This document shows positions 174 through 24,247 of a DNA stretch of 24,247 bases, piece after piece (position 1 is the stretch's first letter; every line of letters starts with the position of its first letter). The position numbers and the translations under genes are program-made. The notes beneath the pieces were generated by a model that saw nothing but the letters and a program-made list of their open reading frames with translations, did not search any database and had not been told where the DNA came from. The DNA comes from a virus. The stretch covers positions 1 through 24,247 of IMG/VR virus record IMGVR_UViG_3300021091_000414, one strand, 5' to 3'.

Positions 174-353
174 TTATTGACGCTGAGCCGCTTCCTCTTT
201 CTTCTTTTCTAGGTAGGCAAGAAGCATATTGACATATAGCTCACGTTCCCACGGTATAAGACTTTCTACTTCAGATAAACTCCATTTATGATATTGCATC
301 AATGAAAAGTTCATTTCATAGTAGTTTTTTAGCGTGTTATGAGCGCACGCCAT
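174..353 (-). CDS. 59-codon gp51-like/tail-chaperone-extension ORF overlapping the gp26 stop
   Basis: The ORF runs from ATG 353-351 to TAA 176-174 and encodes 59 residues. A central motif, SLSEVESLIPWERELYVNML, is followed by a charged helix rich in Lys and Glu. From memory, short ORFs with an IPWERE-type motif follow gp26 in many T4-like phages and are called baseplate hub assembly or gp51-like. The start shares one base with the gp26 stop (TAATG). The best Shine-Dalgarno candidate, GGAG, is 16 nt away, so independent initiation looks poor. The ORF is in the -1 frame relative to gp26, and a run of seven T immediately precedes the gp26 stop. It could be made by coupled reinitiation or as a C-terminal extension of gp26 by -1 frameshifting. 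The ORF is convincing; its mode of expression is inferred. Confidence 0.72.
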   Translation of the reverse strand: MACAHNTLKNYYEMNFSLMQYHKWSLSEVESLIPWERELYVNMLLAYLEKKKEEAAQRQ

Positions 354-1060
354 TAAAAAAACTCGGCAACTCCATCAAATGTTACCTTATCGACCTGCCC
401 GCATCCGCCACAAGTATATTCAATCTCATGGCTTAATTTTGGCATTGACTCGAAAAACTTGGTGATTCGTTCATACTGACCAGTGTTCATCGATTCAATA
501 AATTCTATACCTTCTTCCAAGGTGTCTGGTGGAAAGACATTTTCAGCATCATAGACATACTCGATGCATGAAGCCATGAGAGCAAGTTCATTCTTTTCGT
601 TGTTGGTCAATTGTCGAATGCTATCGATAGTCGGGTATTTCATCTTTAAGCCAAGCTTGTCATCGATCATGAATTTATCAACATGATGCTCATTGCGCTT
701 TACCTTTACCTGATCGAGCTTGATTATCACTTCTGTTGCATGATCGCACTTGACACCTTCACGATTTACACCTCCGCGATGACGATATGTAAACTTGACT
801 TCTTCACCTACTGACTTGGCGCGCAGATTTAAAAATAAATATTCGACATCGAAATAGGGTAGTTTCGTTACATCGACACCATCTACACATGCGCTAATCG
901 CATCCTTGATGGATCGAATGATTGAATCCTGATCTTCTGACTCTACTGCAATAAGAAGAGCTTTTTCTTCTTTAACTAGAAATGGGCGAAATGTTACTTC
1001 TTTTCCCGTTGAGGGAATATTGATTGCAAACTTAGGCGTAAGAATTTTCGGTAGCGGCAT
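353..1060 (-). CDS. 26: Baseplate hub assembly protein, T4 gp26-like
   Basis: The 235-aa product matches the T4 gp26 (T4 baseplate protein) family. Its N-terminus, PKFAINIPSTGKEVTFRPFLVKEEK with the run split here as PKFAINIPSTGKEV then TFRPFLVKEEK, is the family signature; T4 gp26 is 208 aa. A C-terminal CGGC (Cys217, Cys220), with Cys105 and His107 upstream, could form a small zinc site. In T4, gp26 takes part in making the central baseplate hub, and related proteins in other myoviruses behave like tail assembly chaperones. The gene follows gp54 by 26 nt, and GGAG lies 8-11 nt before the ATG. It ends in GAG TTT TTT TAA, so the stop sits on a T7 run and overlaps the next ATG by one base. Family assignment is strong; chaperone function is inferred. 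Confidence 0.85.
   Translation of the reverse strand: MPLPKILTPKFAINIPSTGKEVTFRPFLVKEEKALLIAVESEDQDSIIRSIKDAISACVDGVDVTKLPYFDVEYLFLNLRAKSVGEEVKFTYRHRGGVNREGVKCDHATEVIIKLDQVKVKRNEHHVDKFMIDDKLGLKMKYPTIDSIRQLTNNEKNELALMASCIEYVYDAENVFPPDTLEEGIEFIESMNTGQYERITKFFESMPKLSHEIEYTCGGCGQVDKVTFDGVAEFF
355..361 (-). promoter_or_regulatory. Candidate -1 frameshift site (T7 run) at the gp26 stop
   Basis: On the minus strand gp26 ends GAG TTT TTT TAA, which makes seven consecutive T. A -1 slip of the Phe-tRNA on the last TTT, with the stop in the A site, re-pairs perfectly on TTT. Decoding then continues TTA ATG GCG into the 59-codon ORF, giving a fusion of about 295 aa. GGAG at 373-370 lies 8 nt upstream of the T run, similar to the stimulatory Shine-Dalgarno-like element of the dnaX site. 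I could not identify a clear downstream stem-loop by eye. Confidence 0.45.
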
Positions 1061-3180: not shown

Positions 3181-3201
3181 GAATATAAGGAGGATATGTA
3201 C

Positions 3202-3246
3202 ATGTCGAAGTTCACAATCCCTAATCATTATCGGTATAAGCACTAA
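3202..3246 (+). CDS. 14-residue leader peptide in frame with gp48
   Basis: The ORF encodes MSKFTIPNHYRYKH and then TAA. It has the textbook ribosome-binding site AAGGAGG at 3188-3194, 7 nt before its ATG. Its stop is immediately followed by the gp48 ATG in the same frame (TAA ATG), and gp48 has no Shine-Dalgarno sequence of its own. Three readings are possible: a leader that delivers ribosomes to gp48 by reinitiation; the true gp48 N-terminus interrupted by a stop that is read through; or a point mutation or base-call error. I do not recognise the peptide. The strong initiation signal makes translation likely. Confidence 0.55.
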   Translation: MSKFTIPNHYRYKH

Positions 3247-4290
3247 ATGTTTGGTGACCTAATTGATGCCGCCGCCGAAGCAGAGGCCATTCGGAAGAGC
3301 CCTTTACGTGTTTTAGACAAGTTCGGAGGTAAATTCGGAGGTAAAAAACGTCTGACATTTCCTGAAGAACTTCAGCAGATCGATCATTGGGTGACATTTA
3401 CGGCAATGGAGACAACTCAGGCTATTAGAACAGAATCTTCTAAACGCAAGGCAATGGCATCAGTTACACTTCCTCTACCTGCCGGATTACAGACTGCTTA
3501 TAACATAAGCTATAGCGAGCTGGCATTGGGAGCTCTGGGTCGCGAATTTATGGATGCGCTTGGTGGCGATTCTGAGGCGCAAGGGCTTTTCAAAAAAGCG
3601 GGCGCGGCCGCAACGGCGGGCGCCGCGAGTGGTGCGCTCATCGGGGCCACAACCGGCGTCGGCGTGTTCGGCGCCGCGATTGGTGGAGCTGCGGGCGGGG
3701 TCGCCGTCAAGGCGGTGCAGGGGGGCCTCGGCGGTGACGATCAACGATTGGGTCAGATCGCAGTGAGTTCCGCAATGGGCGAGGATAAAATGGCCGCGGC
3801 GGCTGCGGCTCAGTTTGGCGTAGCTCGTAATCCTCATAAAGTTGTGTTATTCGATAGTGTAGGATTTCGAACACATTCATTTTCATATCAATTTACGCCA
3901 AAAAACAGAAGAGAATCGGAAACACTTAATCAAATAATAAAACTATTCAAGTATCACGCATCTCCAAGCATGAACCCAACAGGTACTATAAAGATGGATA
4001 CAGTTAACTCTCTGTTCGGGAGCCAACTTCCGGACGTAACCCTTTCTGGTGGTAAACACTTCTTTAAATACCCTGAATTTTTTCAAATTAAATTTCACCA
4101 TCCAAAATTTCTATTTGAAATAGGCGACTCGGTCTTAAAGACCGTAGACGTTAATTATCATGGTGGAGGTTCTATGTCATATGCGCGCGATATAGCAGAC
4201 ACAGAACCAGCTCCAACACAAGTCAATCTTAGTTTATCATTCATGGAGACGGATATTATCACTAAGGAAAACATTGATAAGGGTAGATAA
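3247..4290 (+). CDS. 48: Baseplate tail-tube cap, T4 gp48-like
   Basis: The 347-aa product is similar in length to T4 gp48 (364 aa), which caps the hub under gp54. The N-terminal part has a tube-like strand region and a TAYNISYSELALG segment near residues 83-95 comparable to T4 gp48. Residues about 118-162 are a glycine/alanine zipper with almost no charge, encoded by unusually GC-rich DNA. The C-terminal half carries FSYQFTPKNRRESETLNQII near 212-231, the reference motif of this family, and a final strand region with LSLSFMETDIITK. The start directly follows the in-frame leader stop and has no ribosome-binding site. gp48 and gp54 are paralogous tube-fold proteins, so a swap is the main alternative. 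The last base of its stop is the first base of the gp53 ATG. Confidence 0.78.
   Translation: MFGDLIDAAAEAEAIRKSPLRVLDKFGGKFGGKKRLTFPEELQQIDHWVTFTAMETTQAIRTESSKRKAMASVTLPLPAGLQTAYNISYSELALGALGREFMDALGGDSEAQGLFKKAGAAATAGAASGALIGATTGVGVFGAAIGGAAGGVAVKAVQGGLGGDDQRLGQIAVSSAMGEDKMAAAAAAQFGVARNPHKVVLFDSVGFRTHSFSYQFTPKNRRESETLNQIIKLFKYHASPSMNPTGTIKMDTVNSLFGSQLPDVTLSGGKHFFKYPEFFQIKFHHPKFLFEIGDSVLKTVDVNYHGGGSMSYARDIADTEPAPTQVNLSLSFMETDIITKENIDKGR
3598..3745 (+). other. GC-rich glycine-zipper segment inside gp48
   Basis: This stretch is visibly far richer in G and C than the AT-leaning flanks and contains several GGCGC, GCGGCCGC and GGGG runs. It encodes alternating Ala/Gly with Leu, Ile and Val: AGAAATAGAASGALIGATTG then VGVFGAAIGGAAGGVAVKAV. 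The pattern resembles membrane-active glycine zippers. The flanking gp48 sequence returns to normal composition on both sides. It may be an insertion or an adopted segment, or simply a codon-usage consequence of Ala and Gly. Confidence 0.6.
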
Positions 4291-6193: not shown

Positions 6194-7699
6194 ATGGAAG
6201 CTGGAGGAGCCACTCCCAAAGATGGAGATCATGCCGGACTTGATGGATTCGTATGGTTCTTTGGCGTAGTCGAAGACCGCAATGATCCGCTAAATGCTGG
6301 TCGCGTGCGTGTGCGCGCGCATGGATTTAATACGGCTGATAAGGCTCTTCTGCCGACCGATAAATTACCGTGGGCGCAATGTATAATGCCAGTAACTTCT
6401 GCCTCGCTGGGCAAAATAGGATCTTCAGCTACGGGATTGATTGAGGGCTCATTTGTTTTTGGATTTTATACCGACGGCAAAAATAGACAGCAGCCAATTA
6501 TTATGGGTTCGTTACCAGGAATTGCAGCCAAAGGGCCCGGCGCAGGAACATCCAGTACAACGCCCGGATCTGGATTTGGTGATCCCGATGGAATATTCCC
6601 ATTATATGGAATAGGATTGGCAGATACGCCTTCGCTTGGTGTTGGTGCTGAATACGGCGGTTCGGATAACACTTCCGCCAAGTTCGAGAGTTGGACACCC
6701 GATGTCTCAGTTGCATCGCGTCATAGAGTATCCAGTGTCGGCGACGACAAGGCCGACGACAAATACCCAAAACTCAATAAAGATAAAAAGATTATACCCG
6801 ACACATGGAGCGAACCTCTTCCTAGAGGAGGTAAGCCGTCGATCTATCCTTATAATCATGTAACAAGAACTGAATCTGGGCATGTTATTGAAATAGACGA
6901 TACTAAGGGCGGCGAACGTATTCATCAATATCACCGAACTGGAACATTCTATGAGATGCAGCCCGACGGTAATCGTGTAACAAAAGTTGTCGGTTCGGAT
7001 TATGAGATTATCATTAAAGACAAGAACGTCTATATTCAGGGCGCATGTAACGTCACAATCAAGGGCGACGTTAAGATGCTTTGTGAGGGAGACCTTGTGC
7101 AAGAGGTTAATAAAAATTATCATTTGACTGTTCATGGCGATATGATAACCAAGATCGGCGGAAATCAACTTACGGAAATATCAAGCGATAGATCAACCAA
7201 TGTCGATGGCAAAGATTCACTTCTGGTTTCAGGAAACCGTATATCCACGATAGGAAACGATTACTCTCTTAACGTGGGCAAAGAAAGAAAAACACAGATT
7301 GGATCTTCGGATGTCAAAGTTGTAGCCAATACTGTTACCACGGTGGCCGGTGGAGGTATCAATTTTACAACGCCTAAGAATACAAATATATCCTCTGTGG
7401 GCGATCTTAACTTTGCAGCTGCCGGCAATATAGCCATAAAGTCCAAGGGCACATTCAAGCTTAATGTCGAGGGGATGCATATTCAGACATATAAGAGTGA
7501 ATCACATTTCCGACATGTGGGTAATGCATTTCCAACGTATAAGGCCGAATCTCATTTTCGACATGAGGGCCATTTCAAGTTTTTTTATGGAGCAGACACG
7601 TCGAAAGACTTTGCGGCGGGCACTGATCATGTTGCACCCTCGCCAGCACGAAGCAGTGACTCTACTCGTAATACCGCAACGGAAGCGACATCATCATGA
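6194..7699 (+). CDS. 5: Baseplate central spike, T4 gp5-like, without a lysozyme domain
   Basis: The 501-aa product starts with an OB-fold (about residues 13-115: FVWFFGVVEDRNDPLNAGRV, then RVRAHGF and FVFGFYTDGKNRQQPIIMGS). This fold binds the gp27-like torus. A linker rich in Gly and Pro follows where T4 gp5 carries its lysozyme domain; no lysozyme-like sequence is visible. From about 220 onward a triple-stranded beta-helix runs, with the VxGxxxxx-type repeats of gp5C (VYIQGACNVTIKGDVKMLCE, HLTVHGDMITKIGGNQLTEI). Near the tip, TYKxESHFRH occurs twice (432-441 and 448-457), adding His438, 441, 454, 457 and 460, followed by a Ser/Thr-rich tail. A ribosome-binding site, AGGAG, overlaps the upstream stop. 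The spike pierces the outer membrane on contraction. Confidence 0.9.
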   Translation: MEAGGATPKDGDHAGLDGFVWFFGVVEDRNDPLNAGRVRVRAHGFNTADKALLPTDKLPWAQCIMPVTSASLGKIGSSATGLIEGSFVFGFYTDGKNRQQPIIMGSLPGIAAKGPGAGTSSTTPGSGFGDPDGIFPLYGIGLADTPSLGVGAEYGGSDNTSAKFESWTPDVSVASRHRVSSVGDDKADDKYPKLNKDKKIIPDTWSEPLPRGGKPSIYPYNHVTRTESGHVIEIDDTKGGERIHQYHRTGTFYEMQPDGNRVTKVVGSDYEIIIKDKNVYIQGACNVTIKGDVKMLCEGDLVQEVNKNYHLTVHGDMITKIGGNQLTEISSDRSTNVDGKDSLLVSGNRISTIGNDYSLNVGKERKTQIGSSDVKVVANTVTTVAGGGINFTTPKNTNISSVGDLNFAAAGNIAIKSKGTFKLNVEGMHIQTYKSESHFRHVGNAFPTYKAESHFRHEGHFKFFYGADTSKDFAAGTDHVAPSPARSSDSTRNTATEATSS

Positions 7700-11752: not shown

Positions 11753-14134
11753 ATGCCGGCCGTCGGGTCAAATGATGTATATCGCAAGCTATCTTCTCAG
11801 ATTGAATCTCAGTTTTCTGAATTCATTCGAGCAGATGGTCCAAAATTTATTTCGTTTGTCAAGGCGTATTTTGAATACATGGAGCAGAGCAACAAAGCTC
11901 TAGATTCAAGTCGAGGGCTATTTGATAATCTAGATATCGACCGAACGGTCGATGATTTCATAGAATACTTTCAGCGCGAATTCATGAATACTATTCCGCG
12001 CAATATTGCAGCAAATAAAAGATTACTGATAAAACACATTAAACAGCTATATCGATCACGCGGTTCTCAGGAATCGTATAGATTTCTGTTTAGGGCCATG
12101 TTCGATACCGAAATAGATTTCTATTATCCTGGCGACGATATTCTTAGAGTTTCTGATGGGCGATGGGTTAATGAAATCGTTTTAAGTGGATATAGGATTG
12201 ATGGTGATCCTCTTCTTATGGACGGGCGACTAATTACTGGACAAACATCAGGTGCTACGGCTCAAGTTATAGAAACATTAAACATCACATCTTTGGGTGT
12301 ATCGCTATATCAGTTTCGTCTACAGTCTCTACAGGGAACATTTACTGCCGATGAACTTATTAGCGACGGACAAGGCAATTCAATTCGGCTTAATAGCACA
12401 GTCGGCGAATTATCGTCGGTAAATATTATTGATGGCGGCGCATTTAATCAATCAGGCGATGTGTTATCTATATCTGGCGCTTCTGGTTCTGGCTCAGCCA
12501 CTGCAACCGTATCAGCTACATCTGAACAAAGCGCAATGACTTTTCGGATTGTCAATGGTGGTTCTGGATATCGCACTACCAATAGTATAATTACAATGAG
12601 CGGCGGTGGACCTGTTCGAACAGCGCGAATTTCCATTGTTAATATATCTAATACTGAAAATATAACCATAAATCAAGACGTTATTGGTGGTGTTAAAAAT
12701 GTAGTCCTCAATACAGGCCTAACATTCAGTACGGGATCGACTAATAGCACAGCAATAAGTGCTAATCTGGCAGCTGCCAATATAACATCGACTATGACGA
12801 CTGCATTAAGCTTCTCTAATATAACGGCAGGTTCGATTAACACCATTGCACTATTGGATCCAGGCGTTGGATATACCAGCATACCTACATTGACTGTAGT
12901 GGATGCCGATATTTCTATTCAATCGATAGAGGATGTCGATAAGGGAGGATTTAAGGGTCAAAATGCGGTAATTGTAGCTAATACTGTGCCAGGAACTGTT
13001 ACTTCGATTTCTATCAATAGTGCCGATTCCAATTTCGTTCGTGATGATGTACTCACAATAACAAATAATACAAGAAGCATAGCCAATACAACCGACACAT
13101 CTACAGACATTAAGGCCAATATAACCCGTGGTCTTATTCGACAGGGAGTATATAATGCCAACGGCGTAGCTAGTGTTTTTAGCGTAAAAACACTAGGTGG
13201 GCGTTATATCGATACGCGTGGTCTTATAAGTTGGAATAATAAACTACAAGATAATTATTACTATCAAGAATATTCATACGTCATCCGAGCCACAAAACTC
13301 GTAGACGAGTATAGAAATGCTATAAAAAAGATATTACATCCTGCTGGTACCAAGATGTTTGGTATTCTGGACACAAATAGTACTTTGGATCTTTCGTCGT
13401 TCGGCACTATCGATACCATAGTGGATGATAGTATTCTAAGTGTCGAAGTCACCTCTATTCCTGATTTGTATGAATCTATTCTACTAGCCGATTCTATAGT
13501 TGGCGGTATTCTGCATGCTGGTCCAATTACAGAATCTACGACAAGCACCGACACAACAAACGCAACCAATACAGCAGTTGCTGCCCTTAGTGAATCGGTC
13601 ACAGGCACTGACACAACAGACGCAGCCAATATAACAACAGCAGCCATTAGTGAATCGGTCACAAGCACTGATGCAACAGACGCAACCAATACAGCAGTTG
13701 CTGCCCTTGGTGAATCGGTCACAGGCACTGACACAACAGACGCAACCAATACAGCAGTTGCTGCCCTTAGTGAATCGGTCACAAGCACTGATGCAACAGA
13801 CGCAACCAATACAGCAGTTGCTGCCCTTGGTGAATCGGTCACAAGCACTGATGCAACAGACGCAACCAATACAGCAGTTGCTGCCCTTAGTGAATCGGTC
13901 ACAAGCACTGATGCAACAGACGCAACCAATACAGCAGTTGCTGCCCTTGGTGAATCGGTCACAAGCACTGATGCAACAGACGCAACCAATACAGCAGTTG
14001 CGGCAATTACAGAGCAAAGCGGTATTCTATTAACGTGGGAAAATGTGATCGAATCTAGTTATGATCCGCAGGTTATATCTGATGTGCTTAATGGTCTTCT
14101 TTCAATTGACGATACGGTCAATGCTACTACGTAA
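11753..14134 (+). CDS. Large baseplate structural protein at the gp7 position, with C-terminal tandem repeats
   Basis: The 793-aa product begins with a domain conserved in T4-like phages of aquatic bacteria: FSEFIRADGPKFISFVKAYF near residues 20-39, DDFIEYFQREF, and LIKHIKQLYRSRGSQESYRF near 91-110, then FYYPGDDILRVSDGRW. A long beta-rich part follows with repeated glycine turns (GGSGY, GVGY). A second conserved segment has YYYQEYSYVIRATKLVDEYR near 502-521 and HPAGTKMFG near 529-537. Residues about 603-742 are 20-residue repeats of the form ATNTAVAAL[S/G]ESVT[S/G]TD. It occupies the place of T4 gene 7, but direct homology to T4 gp7 is not evident to me. The C-terminal repeats may project outward like a fibre stalk. 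Confidence 0.7.
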   Translation: MPAVGSNDVYRKLSSQIESQFSEFIRADGPKFISFVKAYFEYMEQSNKALDSSRGLFDNLDIDRTVDDFIEYFQREFMNTIPRNIAANKRLLIKHIKQLYRSRGSQESYRFLFRAMFDTEIDFYYPGDDILRVSDGRWVNEIVLSGYRIDGDPLLMDGRLITGQTSGATAQVIETLNITSLGVSLYQFRLQSLQGTFTADELISDGQGNSIRLNSTVGELSSVNIIDGGAFNQSGDVLSISGASGSGSATATVSATSEQSAMTFRIVNGGSGYRTTNSIITMSGGGPVRTARISIVNISNTENITINQDVIGGVKNVVLNTGLTFSTGSTNSTAISANLAAANITSTMTTALSFSNITAGSINTIALLDPGVGYTSIPTLTVVDADISIQSIEDVDKGGFKGQNAVIVANTVPGTVTSISINSADSNFVRDDVLTITNNTRSIANTTDTSTDIKANITRGLIRQGVYNANGVASVFSVKTLGGRYIDTRGLISWNNKLQDNYYYQEYSYVIRATKLVDEYRNAIKKILHPAGTKMFGILDTNSTLDLSSFGTIDTIVDDSILSVEVTSIPDLYESILLADSIVGGILHAGPITESTTSTDTTNATNTAVAALSESVTGTDTTDAANITTAAISESVTSTDATDATNTAVAALGESVTGTDTTDATNTAVAALSESVTSTDATDATNTAVAALGESVTSTDATDATNTAVAALSESVTSTDATDATNTAVAALGESVTSTDATDATNTAVAAITEQSGILLTWENVIESSYDPQVISDVLNGLLSIDDTVNATT
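13561..14001 (+). repeat. 60-bp coding tandem array in the gp7-position gene
   Basis: Seven full 60-bp units lie at 13561-13980, a partial eighth reaches about 14001, and a degenerate partial unit lies upstream at about 13528-13560. Unit starts read CGCAACCAATACAGCAGTTG. Units differ at a few positions (CTTAG or CTTGG; ACAGGCACTGACAC or ACAAGCACTGATGC), and the second unit is the most divergent. Units 13741-13860 are identical to 13861-13980, a perfect 120-bp duplication extending about 21 bp further. Since 60 is divisible by three, several other frames also stay open across the array. Confidence 0.95.
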
Positions 14135-22769: not shown

Positions 22770-22985
22770 ATGTATACAAAAGTGAAAGATGCGCCTGGTT
22801 TTGTTCGAGGAGAAAACTCCGCTATATTATCGACAGATGTGGCGAGTTTAACTTCATATAAAAAACGGCGCGATCAGCTTAATGAAATGAGAGCTGCTGT
22901 ACATGATATAAATAACATGAAGATAGAATTAAATGAAATAAAATCCATGTTGCAAACAATTATCGGAAAAATACAAAATGGCTAA
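22770..22985 (+). CDS. Small coiled-coil protein linked to the DUF4815-type protein
   Basis: The 71-aa product begins YTKVKDAPGFVRGENSAIL, followed by a helical half with a clear heptad look (RRDQLNEMRAAVHDINNMKI, then ELNEIKSMLQTIIGKIQ). Short proteins with a 'KV+.A.G.VRD.NS.AIL' start and a C-terminal coiled coil are common next to large structural genes in T4-like marine phages; no function is assigned that I know of. It starts 1 nt after the upstream stop with no ribosome-binding site, so its translation is probably coupled. It overlaps fibre 1 by 8 nt. A trimerising adaptor or fibre chaperone is a reasonable guess, but only a guess. Confidence 0.7.
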   Translation: MYTKVKDAPGFVRGENSAILSTDVASLTSYKKRRDQLNEMRAAVHDINNMKIELNEIKSMLQTIIGKIQNG

Positions 22986-23820
22986 AATTGCCAACGTAGC
23001 ATTGACCAATACATTTGATACATGGCGTATTACGTCAAATAAAGCATTTGATCGGCTAAGTCAGTTTGCAATAAACAATTCATCGCTATATGCAAATACA
23101 GTTACGGCCAATAACAACCTTAATGCATTGAAAAATGCCACGATTACAAAGAATCTAACTGTATCGGGCAATACATCCACTAATAAAGCAACTGTTACCT
23201 CAGCGCTGACTGTATCGGGTAATACAACATTAGGTGCTGCAGGTAAGACAATTACATCTACCGGTGTTCTAGCTCATACTGGTAATCTAACTGTATCTGG
23301 TAATACCTCCGCTAATAAAGCAACAGTTACGTCGGCTCTAACAGTATCAGGTAATACAACATTAGGTGCTGCCGGTAAGACAATTACATCGACTGGTCTT
23401 CTGGGCCATACTGGTCGAGCCACTATTAGTACAAATCTAACTGTATCTGGTAATACGACGCTGGGTGCTGCGGGTAAGACGATTACAACGACAGGTGATC
23501 TATCCCACACCGGTGATATTACTGCATCTGGTGATATCACATCGAATTCGGATCTGGCATTTAAGTCTAACGTCGAAATAATTACCAATGCTCTCGACAA
23601 ATTAAGTAACATCAAAGGTATTACATTCAATAGCGATGGTGTTTTGCGCCGTCGGACAGGAGTCATAGCTCAGGATGTACAGACGGTGTTGCCCGAAGCT
23701 ATTCATACTAATTCCGATGGTCATCTATCTGTTGCATATGGCAATATGGTCGGACTTTTAGTGGAAGCCATCAAGGAACTGGATAAAAAAATCAAGAATA
23801 TTACCGAATCAAATCGATAA
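22978..23820 (+). CDS. Tail fibre 1 with C-terminal S74 intramolecular chaperone
   Basis: The 280-aa product has three parts. Residues 1-58 form an attachment region shared with fibre 2 (FDRLSQFAINNSSLYANTVT). Residues 59-102 and 103-146 are two 44-residue repeats built around LTVSGNTTLGAAGKTITSTG, with a partial third to about 178; this beta-repeat style is typical of trimeric fibre shafts. The C-terminus (about 191-280) is a Peptidase S74 domain: Ser191 and Lys196 in SDLAFK match the Ser-Asp-x-x-x-Lys dyad, followed by GVIAQDVQTVLPEAI near 228-242 and YGNMVGLLVEAIKELDKKI near 254-272. The domain normally helps trimerise the fibre and then cuts itself off before the Ser. The protein is short for a receptor-binding fibre, so it may be a tip or a short fibre. 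Confidence 0.85.
   Translation: MAKIANVALTNTFDTWRITSNKAFDRLSQFAINNSSLYANTVTANNNLNALKNATITKNLTVSGNTSTNKATVTSALTVSGNTTLGAAGKTITSTGVLAHTGNLTVSGNTSANKATVTSALTVSGNTTLGAAGKTITSTGLLGHTGRATISTNLTVSGNTTLGAAGKTITTTGDLSHTGDITASGDITSNSDLAFKSNVEIITNALDKLSNIKGITFNSDGVLRRRTGVIAQDVQTVLPEAIHTNSDGHLSVAYGNMVGLLVEAIKELDKKIKNITESNR
23154..23417 (+). repeat. Two 132-bp tandem repeats in fibre 1
   Basis: Two consecutive 44-codon units start at the AATCTAACTGTATC-type sequences at about 23154 and 23286. They encode NLTVSGNTS[T/A]NKATVTSA followed by LTVSGNTTLGAAGKTITSTG. They differ mainly by synonymous changes, and a shortened third copy follows. The core LTVSGNTTLGAAGKTIT is the same as in fibre 2. Confidence 0.8.
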
Positions 23821-23836
23821 GACAAATAACTACTGA

Positions 23837-23844
23837 ACTAAATA
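23837..23844 (+). promoter_or_regulatory. Late-promoter-like octamer ACTAAATA before fibre 2
   Basis: GAACTAAATAG at 23836-23845 is identical in 11 bases to the distal motif before gp25. It sits 36 nt upstream of the fibre 2 ATG, with GAAGG as ribosome-binding site. It indicates that fibre 2 can be transcribed independently of fibre 1. Confidence 0.5.
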
Positions 23845-23880
23845 GTCTAAAGTTCTTTACTAAAAATATAGAAGGTTAAT

Positions 23881-24247
23881 ATGGCCAAGATCGCAAACGT
23901 CGAAACATCAGATACTTTTGGAATATGGCGAACACGCTCGAACGCGGCGTTTGATCGGCTAAGTCAGTTTGCAATAAACAATTCATCGCTATATGCAAAT
24001 ACAGTTACAGCTAATAACAATCTCAATGCATTGAAAAATGCCACGATCACAAAGAATCTACTTGTATCTGGTAATACAACATTAGGCGCTGCTGGTAAGA
24101 CGATTACATCCACAGGTGTTCTAGCTCACACTGGTAATCTAACTGTATCAGGCAATACAACATTAGGCGCTGCTGGTAAGACGATTACATCCACAGGTGT
24201 CCTAGCTCACACTGGTAATCTAACTGTATCTGGTAATACAACATTAG
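23881..24247 (+). CDS. Tail fibre 2, 5' part of a paralogue of fibre 1, cut by the window edge
   Basis: The frame is open from ATG 23881 to the window end (122 codons). It starts MAKIANVETSDTFGIWRTRS, then repeats the fibre 1 attachment segment almost unchanged at residues 24-60 (FDRLSQFAINNSSLYANTVT, ANNNLNALKNATITKNL). The shaft follows as 27-residue units (LVSGNTTLGAAGKTITSTGV, LAHTGN) with an exact 81-bp period. The 5' 20 residues differ clearly from fibre 1, while the next segment is nearly identical in DNA. The C-terminus is not in the window, so whether it ends in another S74 domain cannot be seen. ACTAAATA and GAAGG upstream give it its own expression signals. Confidence 0.85.
   Translation, partial: MAKIANVETSDTFGIWRTRSNAAFDRLSQFAINNSSLYANTVTANNNLNALKNATITKNLLVSGNTTLGAAGKTITSTGVLAHTGNLTVSGNTTLGAAGKTITSTGVLAHTGNLTVSGNTTL
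24055..24247 (+). repeat. 81-bp tandem repeats in the fibre 2 shaft
   Basis: Units start at 24055, 24136 and 24217 with AATCTA, spaced exactly 81 bp. Each encodes N-L-[L/T]-VSGNTTLGAAGKTITSTGVLAHTG. The first two full units differ at only a few bases. The array continues past the window edge. Confidence 0.85.

Follow-up and report, generated by a model that had tools for sequence, protein, structure and literature searches.

The window, that is, the whole stretch of viral DNA analysed here (24,247 nucleotides, IMG/VR record IMGVR_UViG_3300021091_000414), carries close to its beginning a T4-like gp26 gene and, downstream of it on the same strand, a small open reading frame (ORF). The features of this junction are the following.

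353..1060, minus strand: gp26, putative short tail assembly chaperone form (TAC-N), 235 aa
174..353, minus strand: ORF for the gp51 C-terminal domain (putative TAC-C), 59 codons (59 aa), in the -1 frame relative to gp26
355..361, minus strand: putative slip site, a T7 run made of the codons TTT TTT and the T of TAA, with a U_UUU tetramer; the first heptamer base is G362
370..373, minus strand: GGAG, internal Shine-Dalgarno-like (SD-like) candidate stimulator, 8 nt 5' of the T7 run
330..352, minus strand: predicted hairpin UGGCGUG / CGCUCAUAA loop / CACGCUA, 7 bp, -8.2 kcal/mol, directly 3' of TAA
351..353, minus strand: ATG overlapping the gp26 stop (TAATG), possible gp51 reinitiation start with a weak SD

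The 3' end of gp26 reads GAG TTT TTT TAA, with the stop codon at 355..353 (minus strand), and the ATG of the small ORF has one base in common with this stop. When the sequence was read again, all coordinates given by the first-pass annotation for gp26, the T7 run, the small ORF, the overlap and GGAG were correct, as were the -1 frame of the small ORF and the length of about 295 aa of the extended product (235 + 1 + 59 = 295 aa). The absence of a good ribosome-binding site in front of the small ORF was also confirmed, the anti-SD pairing of the overlap ATG being weak (-2.5 kcal/mol vs -5.9 kcal/mol for gp26's own ATG). The peptide spanning the putative fusion junction would be VTFDGVAEFFLMACAHNTLK.

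The T7 run alone is unremarkable in the window, where TTTTTTT occurs five times when both strands are counted and another gene carries an in-frame AAG TTT TTT TAT at positions 7577-7588. The junction exceeds chance only by comparison with relatives. A sequencing error at the T run was ruled out, as the related loci L083-L086 carry the same sequence or a GAA variant of it. The other T7-bearing gene (6194-7699) contains GAGGGCCATTTCAAGTTTTTTTATGG at 7565-7590 (plus strand), with an in-frame G_TTT_TTT and an SD-like GAGGG upstream; this site closely resembles the gp26 junction and is followed by no known -1 gene. Elsewhere in the window, the gene at 11753-14134 holds internal tandem repeats of ESVTSTDATDATNTAVAAL at 13264-14017, with long open frames also on the other strand, and two adjoining genes at 22978-24247 encode proteins with nearly identical starts (MAKIANV... 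in each, then FDRLSQFAINNSSLYANTVTANNNLNALKNATITKNL), as if a repetitive structural or fibre-like protein had been duplicated recently.

gp26 and the small ORF belong to the T4 gp26/gp51 family

Curated profile searches placed both products in the T4 gp26/gp51 family. The gp26 of the window matched Pfam T4_baseplate PF12322 (E 2e-61) and phrog_150 (E 1e-65), and relatives of it were present in more than 1,300 phage records, while the small ORF matched phrog_634, 'baseplate hub assembly catalyst' (E 2e-23), over positions 59-116 of 121, i.e. over the second half of the profile only. AlphaFold (AF2) models were obtained for gp26 (confident, pLDDT 88.6) and for the small ORF (all-helical, pLDDT 81). 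Sequence searches of the PDB with gp26 and with the gp51-domain ORF gave no match for either, and fold searches gave no significant PDB match, the highest-probability and non-significant one being the HK97 tail assembly chaperone 2ob9 (probability 0.28, E 2). In a viral structure library, the named matches were either related to gp26 or uncharacterised proteins of phages. The fold link that these models suggest between gp26 and solved chaperones is weak and serves as a hint.

In T4, gp26 and gp51 are encoded apart, with gp51 on the opposite strand. The phrog_150 match of T4 gp26 (208 aa) reaches only position 235 of the profile, whereas for T4 gp51 (249 aa) the phrog_150 match extends to position 280, with further matches to PF12322 (residues 1-201) and to phrog_634. 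T4 gp51 thus consists of an entire gp26-like chain and the C-terminal domain, which makes it the long form, encoded by a gene of its own. What decided this composition were the PHROG and Pfam scans, and not hhalign, which gave only partial local matches when the gp26 and gp51 alignments were compared with the single T4 gp51. This gene lies at 3192-3938 (minus strand) of the T4 record (L082) and is absent from the feature table of that record.

Because T4 gp51 combines a gp26-like protein with the C-domain, gp26 and gp51 look like the short and the long tail assembly chaperones. The arrangement that would give two forms, the long one being the short one plus a C domain in the -1 frame, is conserved in the family, with T4 having a separate long gene. 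In L084, a near-identical relative, the gene that follows shows similarity to tape measure families (best E 1.6e-8, about 120 residues). This is the neighbour to be expected for a chaperone pair, and it puts the pair just upstream of the tape measure gene; the window ends before that gene.

A slippery heptamer and an open -1 frame are conserved at the gp26 end

We compared the junctions of 299 usable loci from scans of viral contigs and phage records, reduced to 182 non-redundant representatives at less than 90% gp26 identity. An in-frame canonical heptamer, T_TTT_TT(C/T), was present at the gp26 end of 176 of the 182 (T_TTT_TTC in 123, T_TTT_TTT in 53), at 0 to 8 codons before the gp26 stop. 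It was kept in 37 of 42 lineages at less than 50% identity, and loci from a later scan carried it too. Non-canonical junctions were those of T4, of the window clade (G or A_TTT_TTT) and of two Ackermannviridae records, Pseudomonas phage Cygsa01 and Vibrio phage K448 (NTT TTC, with a U_UUC tetramer kept). A search from L139, a representative without the heptamer, found no relatives.

The pair FF is invariant in the protein at the gp26 end. The residue before it is S, D, N, A or G, and the third base of that codon was T in all 176 phages, whose first F codon was TTT without exception (log10 P about -38 and -28, respectively, with representatives taken as independent; kinship makes these values and the counts of representatives overstate independence, and the direction is clear). 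At other FF sites of the same genes, T_TTT_TTY was found in only 3 of 184 cases and G_TTT_TTT in 28 of 184. Since the latter is common there and occurs in another gene of the window, G_TTT_TTT is not strongly slippery alone.

Translation in the -1 frame from the slip site matched the gp51 HMM in 179 of the 182 representatives, and the other two frames in none. In 86 of 181, no ATG, GTG or TTG precedes the conserved gp51 block, and in many phages the first start codon that could be used comes only after the conserved gp51-domain residues H5 and L8. In GenBank, the locus is annotated as two genes or as gp26 alone; in P-HM2, gp51 is annotated with a start in the middle of the domain. Because the frameshift signal is conserved in the family, those phage records examined here that list gp26 and gp51 as two independent genes are probably misannotated.

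The first-pass annotation had proposed a -1 programmed frameshift, and this reading gained support from the family-wide comparison. Two of the junction features that it had singled out, the T run and the -1 relation, were conserved nearly without exception, while the overlap of an ATG with the gp26 stop was not, being present in only 37 of 181. Relatives with no slippery run and a ribosome-binding site proper to the small ORF were looked for, and the only case found was T4, whose long form is a separate gene.

Candidate stimulators flank the slip site

Pairing to the 16S tail exceeded a synonymous-codon null only at positions -21 to -3 before the slip site (mean z -1.09), with z near zero in three upstream control windows. 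Likewise, the 38 nt immediately 3' of the slip site were the only region in which RNA structure exceeded the synonymous-codon null (mean z -1.17, 33% of junctions at p<0.05), compared with 6% and 3% at p<0.05 in the regions further downstream; a first test by dinucleotide shuffling had given a mixed outcome. Across 63 junctions of the cyanophage type, a 5-bp stem shows covariation, with 80.6% pairing and 29 double-change cells; none of 500 shuffles was as good, and sliding the pairing abolished the signal. The exact pairing of the stem is not fixed, since other phages use a longer alternative stem.

The hairpin is not present in every relative. One universal hairpin was rejected as a description of the family, structure being found in about 40% of the one-codon-after-slip phages and being absent on average from the stop-adjacent ones. 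The stop-adjacent group overall has no excess structure, and two of its members, the window (p 0.015 vs the synonymous-codon null; z -2.1 for its hairpin) and L140 (p 0.005), do show it. In L195, L043, L179 and L019, the slip site is directly followed by hairpins of great strength (-13 to -16 kcal/mol, with up to about 12 bp).

The slip site of the window clade is degenerate

In the tree, the window groups with L083 and L086 among phages whose remaining members have T_TTT_TTC TAA. Two changes distinguish this clade, GAT to GAG or GAA and TTC to TTT, by which perfect P-site re-pairing was lost, a U_UUU tetramer was left and a T7 run up to the stop codon was created. The window clade is a derived exception with a degenerate heptamer, G/A_TTT_TTT, directly before TAA. 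In the window, the X_XXY_YYZ pattern is broken by a G at the X position, which is T in nearly all relatives, a point that the first-pass annotation left unmentioned; an in-frame tetramer of the U_UUY type (Z_ZZN), the alternative motif in accepted use, is present as U_UUU at 359..356, and both kinds of stimulator, the upstream GGAG and the downstream hairpin, are in place. In E. coli, U_UUY tetramers shift at a low rate when a stimulator is present (0.26-5.6% for six motifs, U_UUC more than U_UUU), and U_UUU tetramers shift poorly without stimulators (PMC4066793). As the slip site of the window is a weaker derivative, we infer the use of frameshifting in this phage from its relatives, and consider it likely in the window clade. 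The hairpin, which begins right after TAA and hence closer than usual, counts against it.

The main rival to frameshifting in this clade is termination-reinitiation, in which ribosomes restarting at the overlap ATG would make a separate 59-aa C-domain protein, the old frameshift being lost or minor. The window has the TAATG overlap, and the X base of its clade has changed from T to G or A. An overlap ATG was found in all five non-T4 representatives without the heptamer vs 32 of 176 with it (Fisher p 3e-4, from few lineages), and for this reason reinitiation stays a rival; the overlap ATG in heptamer-less phages may mark a switch to it. The five are L130, L132, L134, L139 and the window (351-353), and the share among heptamer phages is 18%. 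Against reinitiation, overlap ATGs as a class lack an SD (mean +0.21 vs -3.68 kcal/mol for gp26 starts), the AUG of the window is partly buried in the hairpin, which takes in its UG, and the nearest sister phage, L142, has ATA in its place and no other early start. Moreover, only a fusion is possible in many relatives, and T4 encodes a fused long form. Taken together, we regard reinitiation as rather improbable.

Far less probable is transcriptional slippage, by which RNA polymerase would add one U on the T7 run, so that a minority of mRNAs would carry gp26 and gp51 in the same frame. The T7 run does sit at the junction, and the under-representation of UUUUUUU in E. coli genes, for which transcriptional slippage was offered as a possible reason (PMC4066793), counts in its favour. 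Most relatives (123/182), however, have T6 followed by C, probably too short for such slippage, and still keep the arrangement; the enriched SD and hairpin elements act on ribosomes, and other T7 runs are tolerated in the window. An incidental T run, i.e. a conserved FF end in an AT-rich genome with gp51 as an ordinary downstream gene, would fit the invariant FF and the five T7 runs of the window, but is close to refuted by the T that precedes FF whatever the amino acid, the constant TTT of the first F, the avoidance of the motif at FF sites elsewhere and the many gp51 ORFs without a start codon; junctions with other FF codons and an intact gp51 were not seen among the 182 representatives.

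Proposed mechanism and relation to known systems

We think it probable that gp26 and the ORF downstream of it belong to a single tail-assembly-chaperone locus, in which a -1 slip on the T run yields a 295-aa fusion. Under this frameshift reading, the majority of ribosomes would end at TAA and produce gp26 (TAC-N), and a minority would shift by -1 on the T run and continue into the gp51 domain, giving a gp26-L-gp51 fusion (TAC-NC). On the model of lambda G/GT, the short form would coat the tape measure protein, the long form would recruit tail tube subunits, and both would leave the finished tail. The relatives would shift via T_TTT_TT(C/T), preceded at about 8-9 nt by an SD-like stretch and in many cases followed by a hairpin. 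The window clade would do so on the U_UUU tetramer, or by slippage of the P-site UUU while UAA waits in the A site, with the help of GGAG and the hairpin.

Vladimirov, Gautam and Davidson are said to have described in 2022 a frameshift conserved across several T4-like groups, T4 itself relying on genes 26 and 51. To judge from its title and from papers citing it (PMC10885494, PMC12846349), that work (Virology 566:9-15) identified the T4-like tail assembly chaperones. In these citing papers, T4-like TAC-N genes are described as carrying polyT frameshift signals (PMC12846349), and some T4-like phages as carrying separate short and long genes instead (PMC10885494). Since the chaperone frameshift of T4-like phages is in Vladimirov et al. 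2022 and the citing papers, the core finding is already known. The first-pass annotation had expected a frameshift to link gp26/gp51 directly to the G/GT system; the frameshift reading was supported, and the link is not new. The quantification, the SD and hairpin evidence and the clade with a decayed slip site may be new.

The frameshift site of T7 gene 10A/10B, a capsid gene, is GGUUUUC. It shares with the window a U-rich slip with imperfect P-site re-pairing, the protein being unrelated. PolyT signals are mentioned in PMC12846349. The TAC locus of Vandenendeviridae/Andersonviridae described there involves a myovirus chaperone with a T run as the site of a -1 frameshift, and its motif, GTTTTT, is G-led like that of the window; these are different phage families, and the likeness is one of motif and arrangement. 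Lambda G/GT (Xu, Hendrix & Duda 2004; PMC5009743) likewise has a short and a -1 extended long form beside a tape-measure-like gene; its slip sequence differs, so that the likeness lies in the arrangement, with a fold link that is only suggestive. The T4-like gp26/gp51 of Vladimirov et al. (2022) belong to the same gene family and follow the same short/long logic, from which the window clade departs by its G/A_TTT_TTT beside the stop and its overlap ATG.

T4 has long been listed as the exception to tail-chaperone frameshifting, the G-T frameshift being widely conserved except in this phage (Atkins et al. 2016; PMC5009743), and its wider family shows the frameshift signal, with a gp51 that has no start codon of its own in many of the phages examined. 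If the ratio of about 30:1 known from lambda holds here (PMC5009743), a shift rate of a few percent would be enough. The window clade is a natural experiment on the extent to which a slip site can decay. It might even be a natural intermediate that has lost the canonical heptamer and whose long-form domain is switching to independent initiation or to a stop-codon slip, an idea that we hold as doubtful; if true, it would represent a third way to set the chaperone ratio, beside the cyanophage heptamer and the separate long gene of T4.
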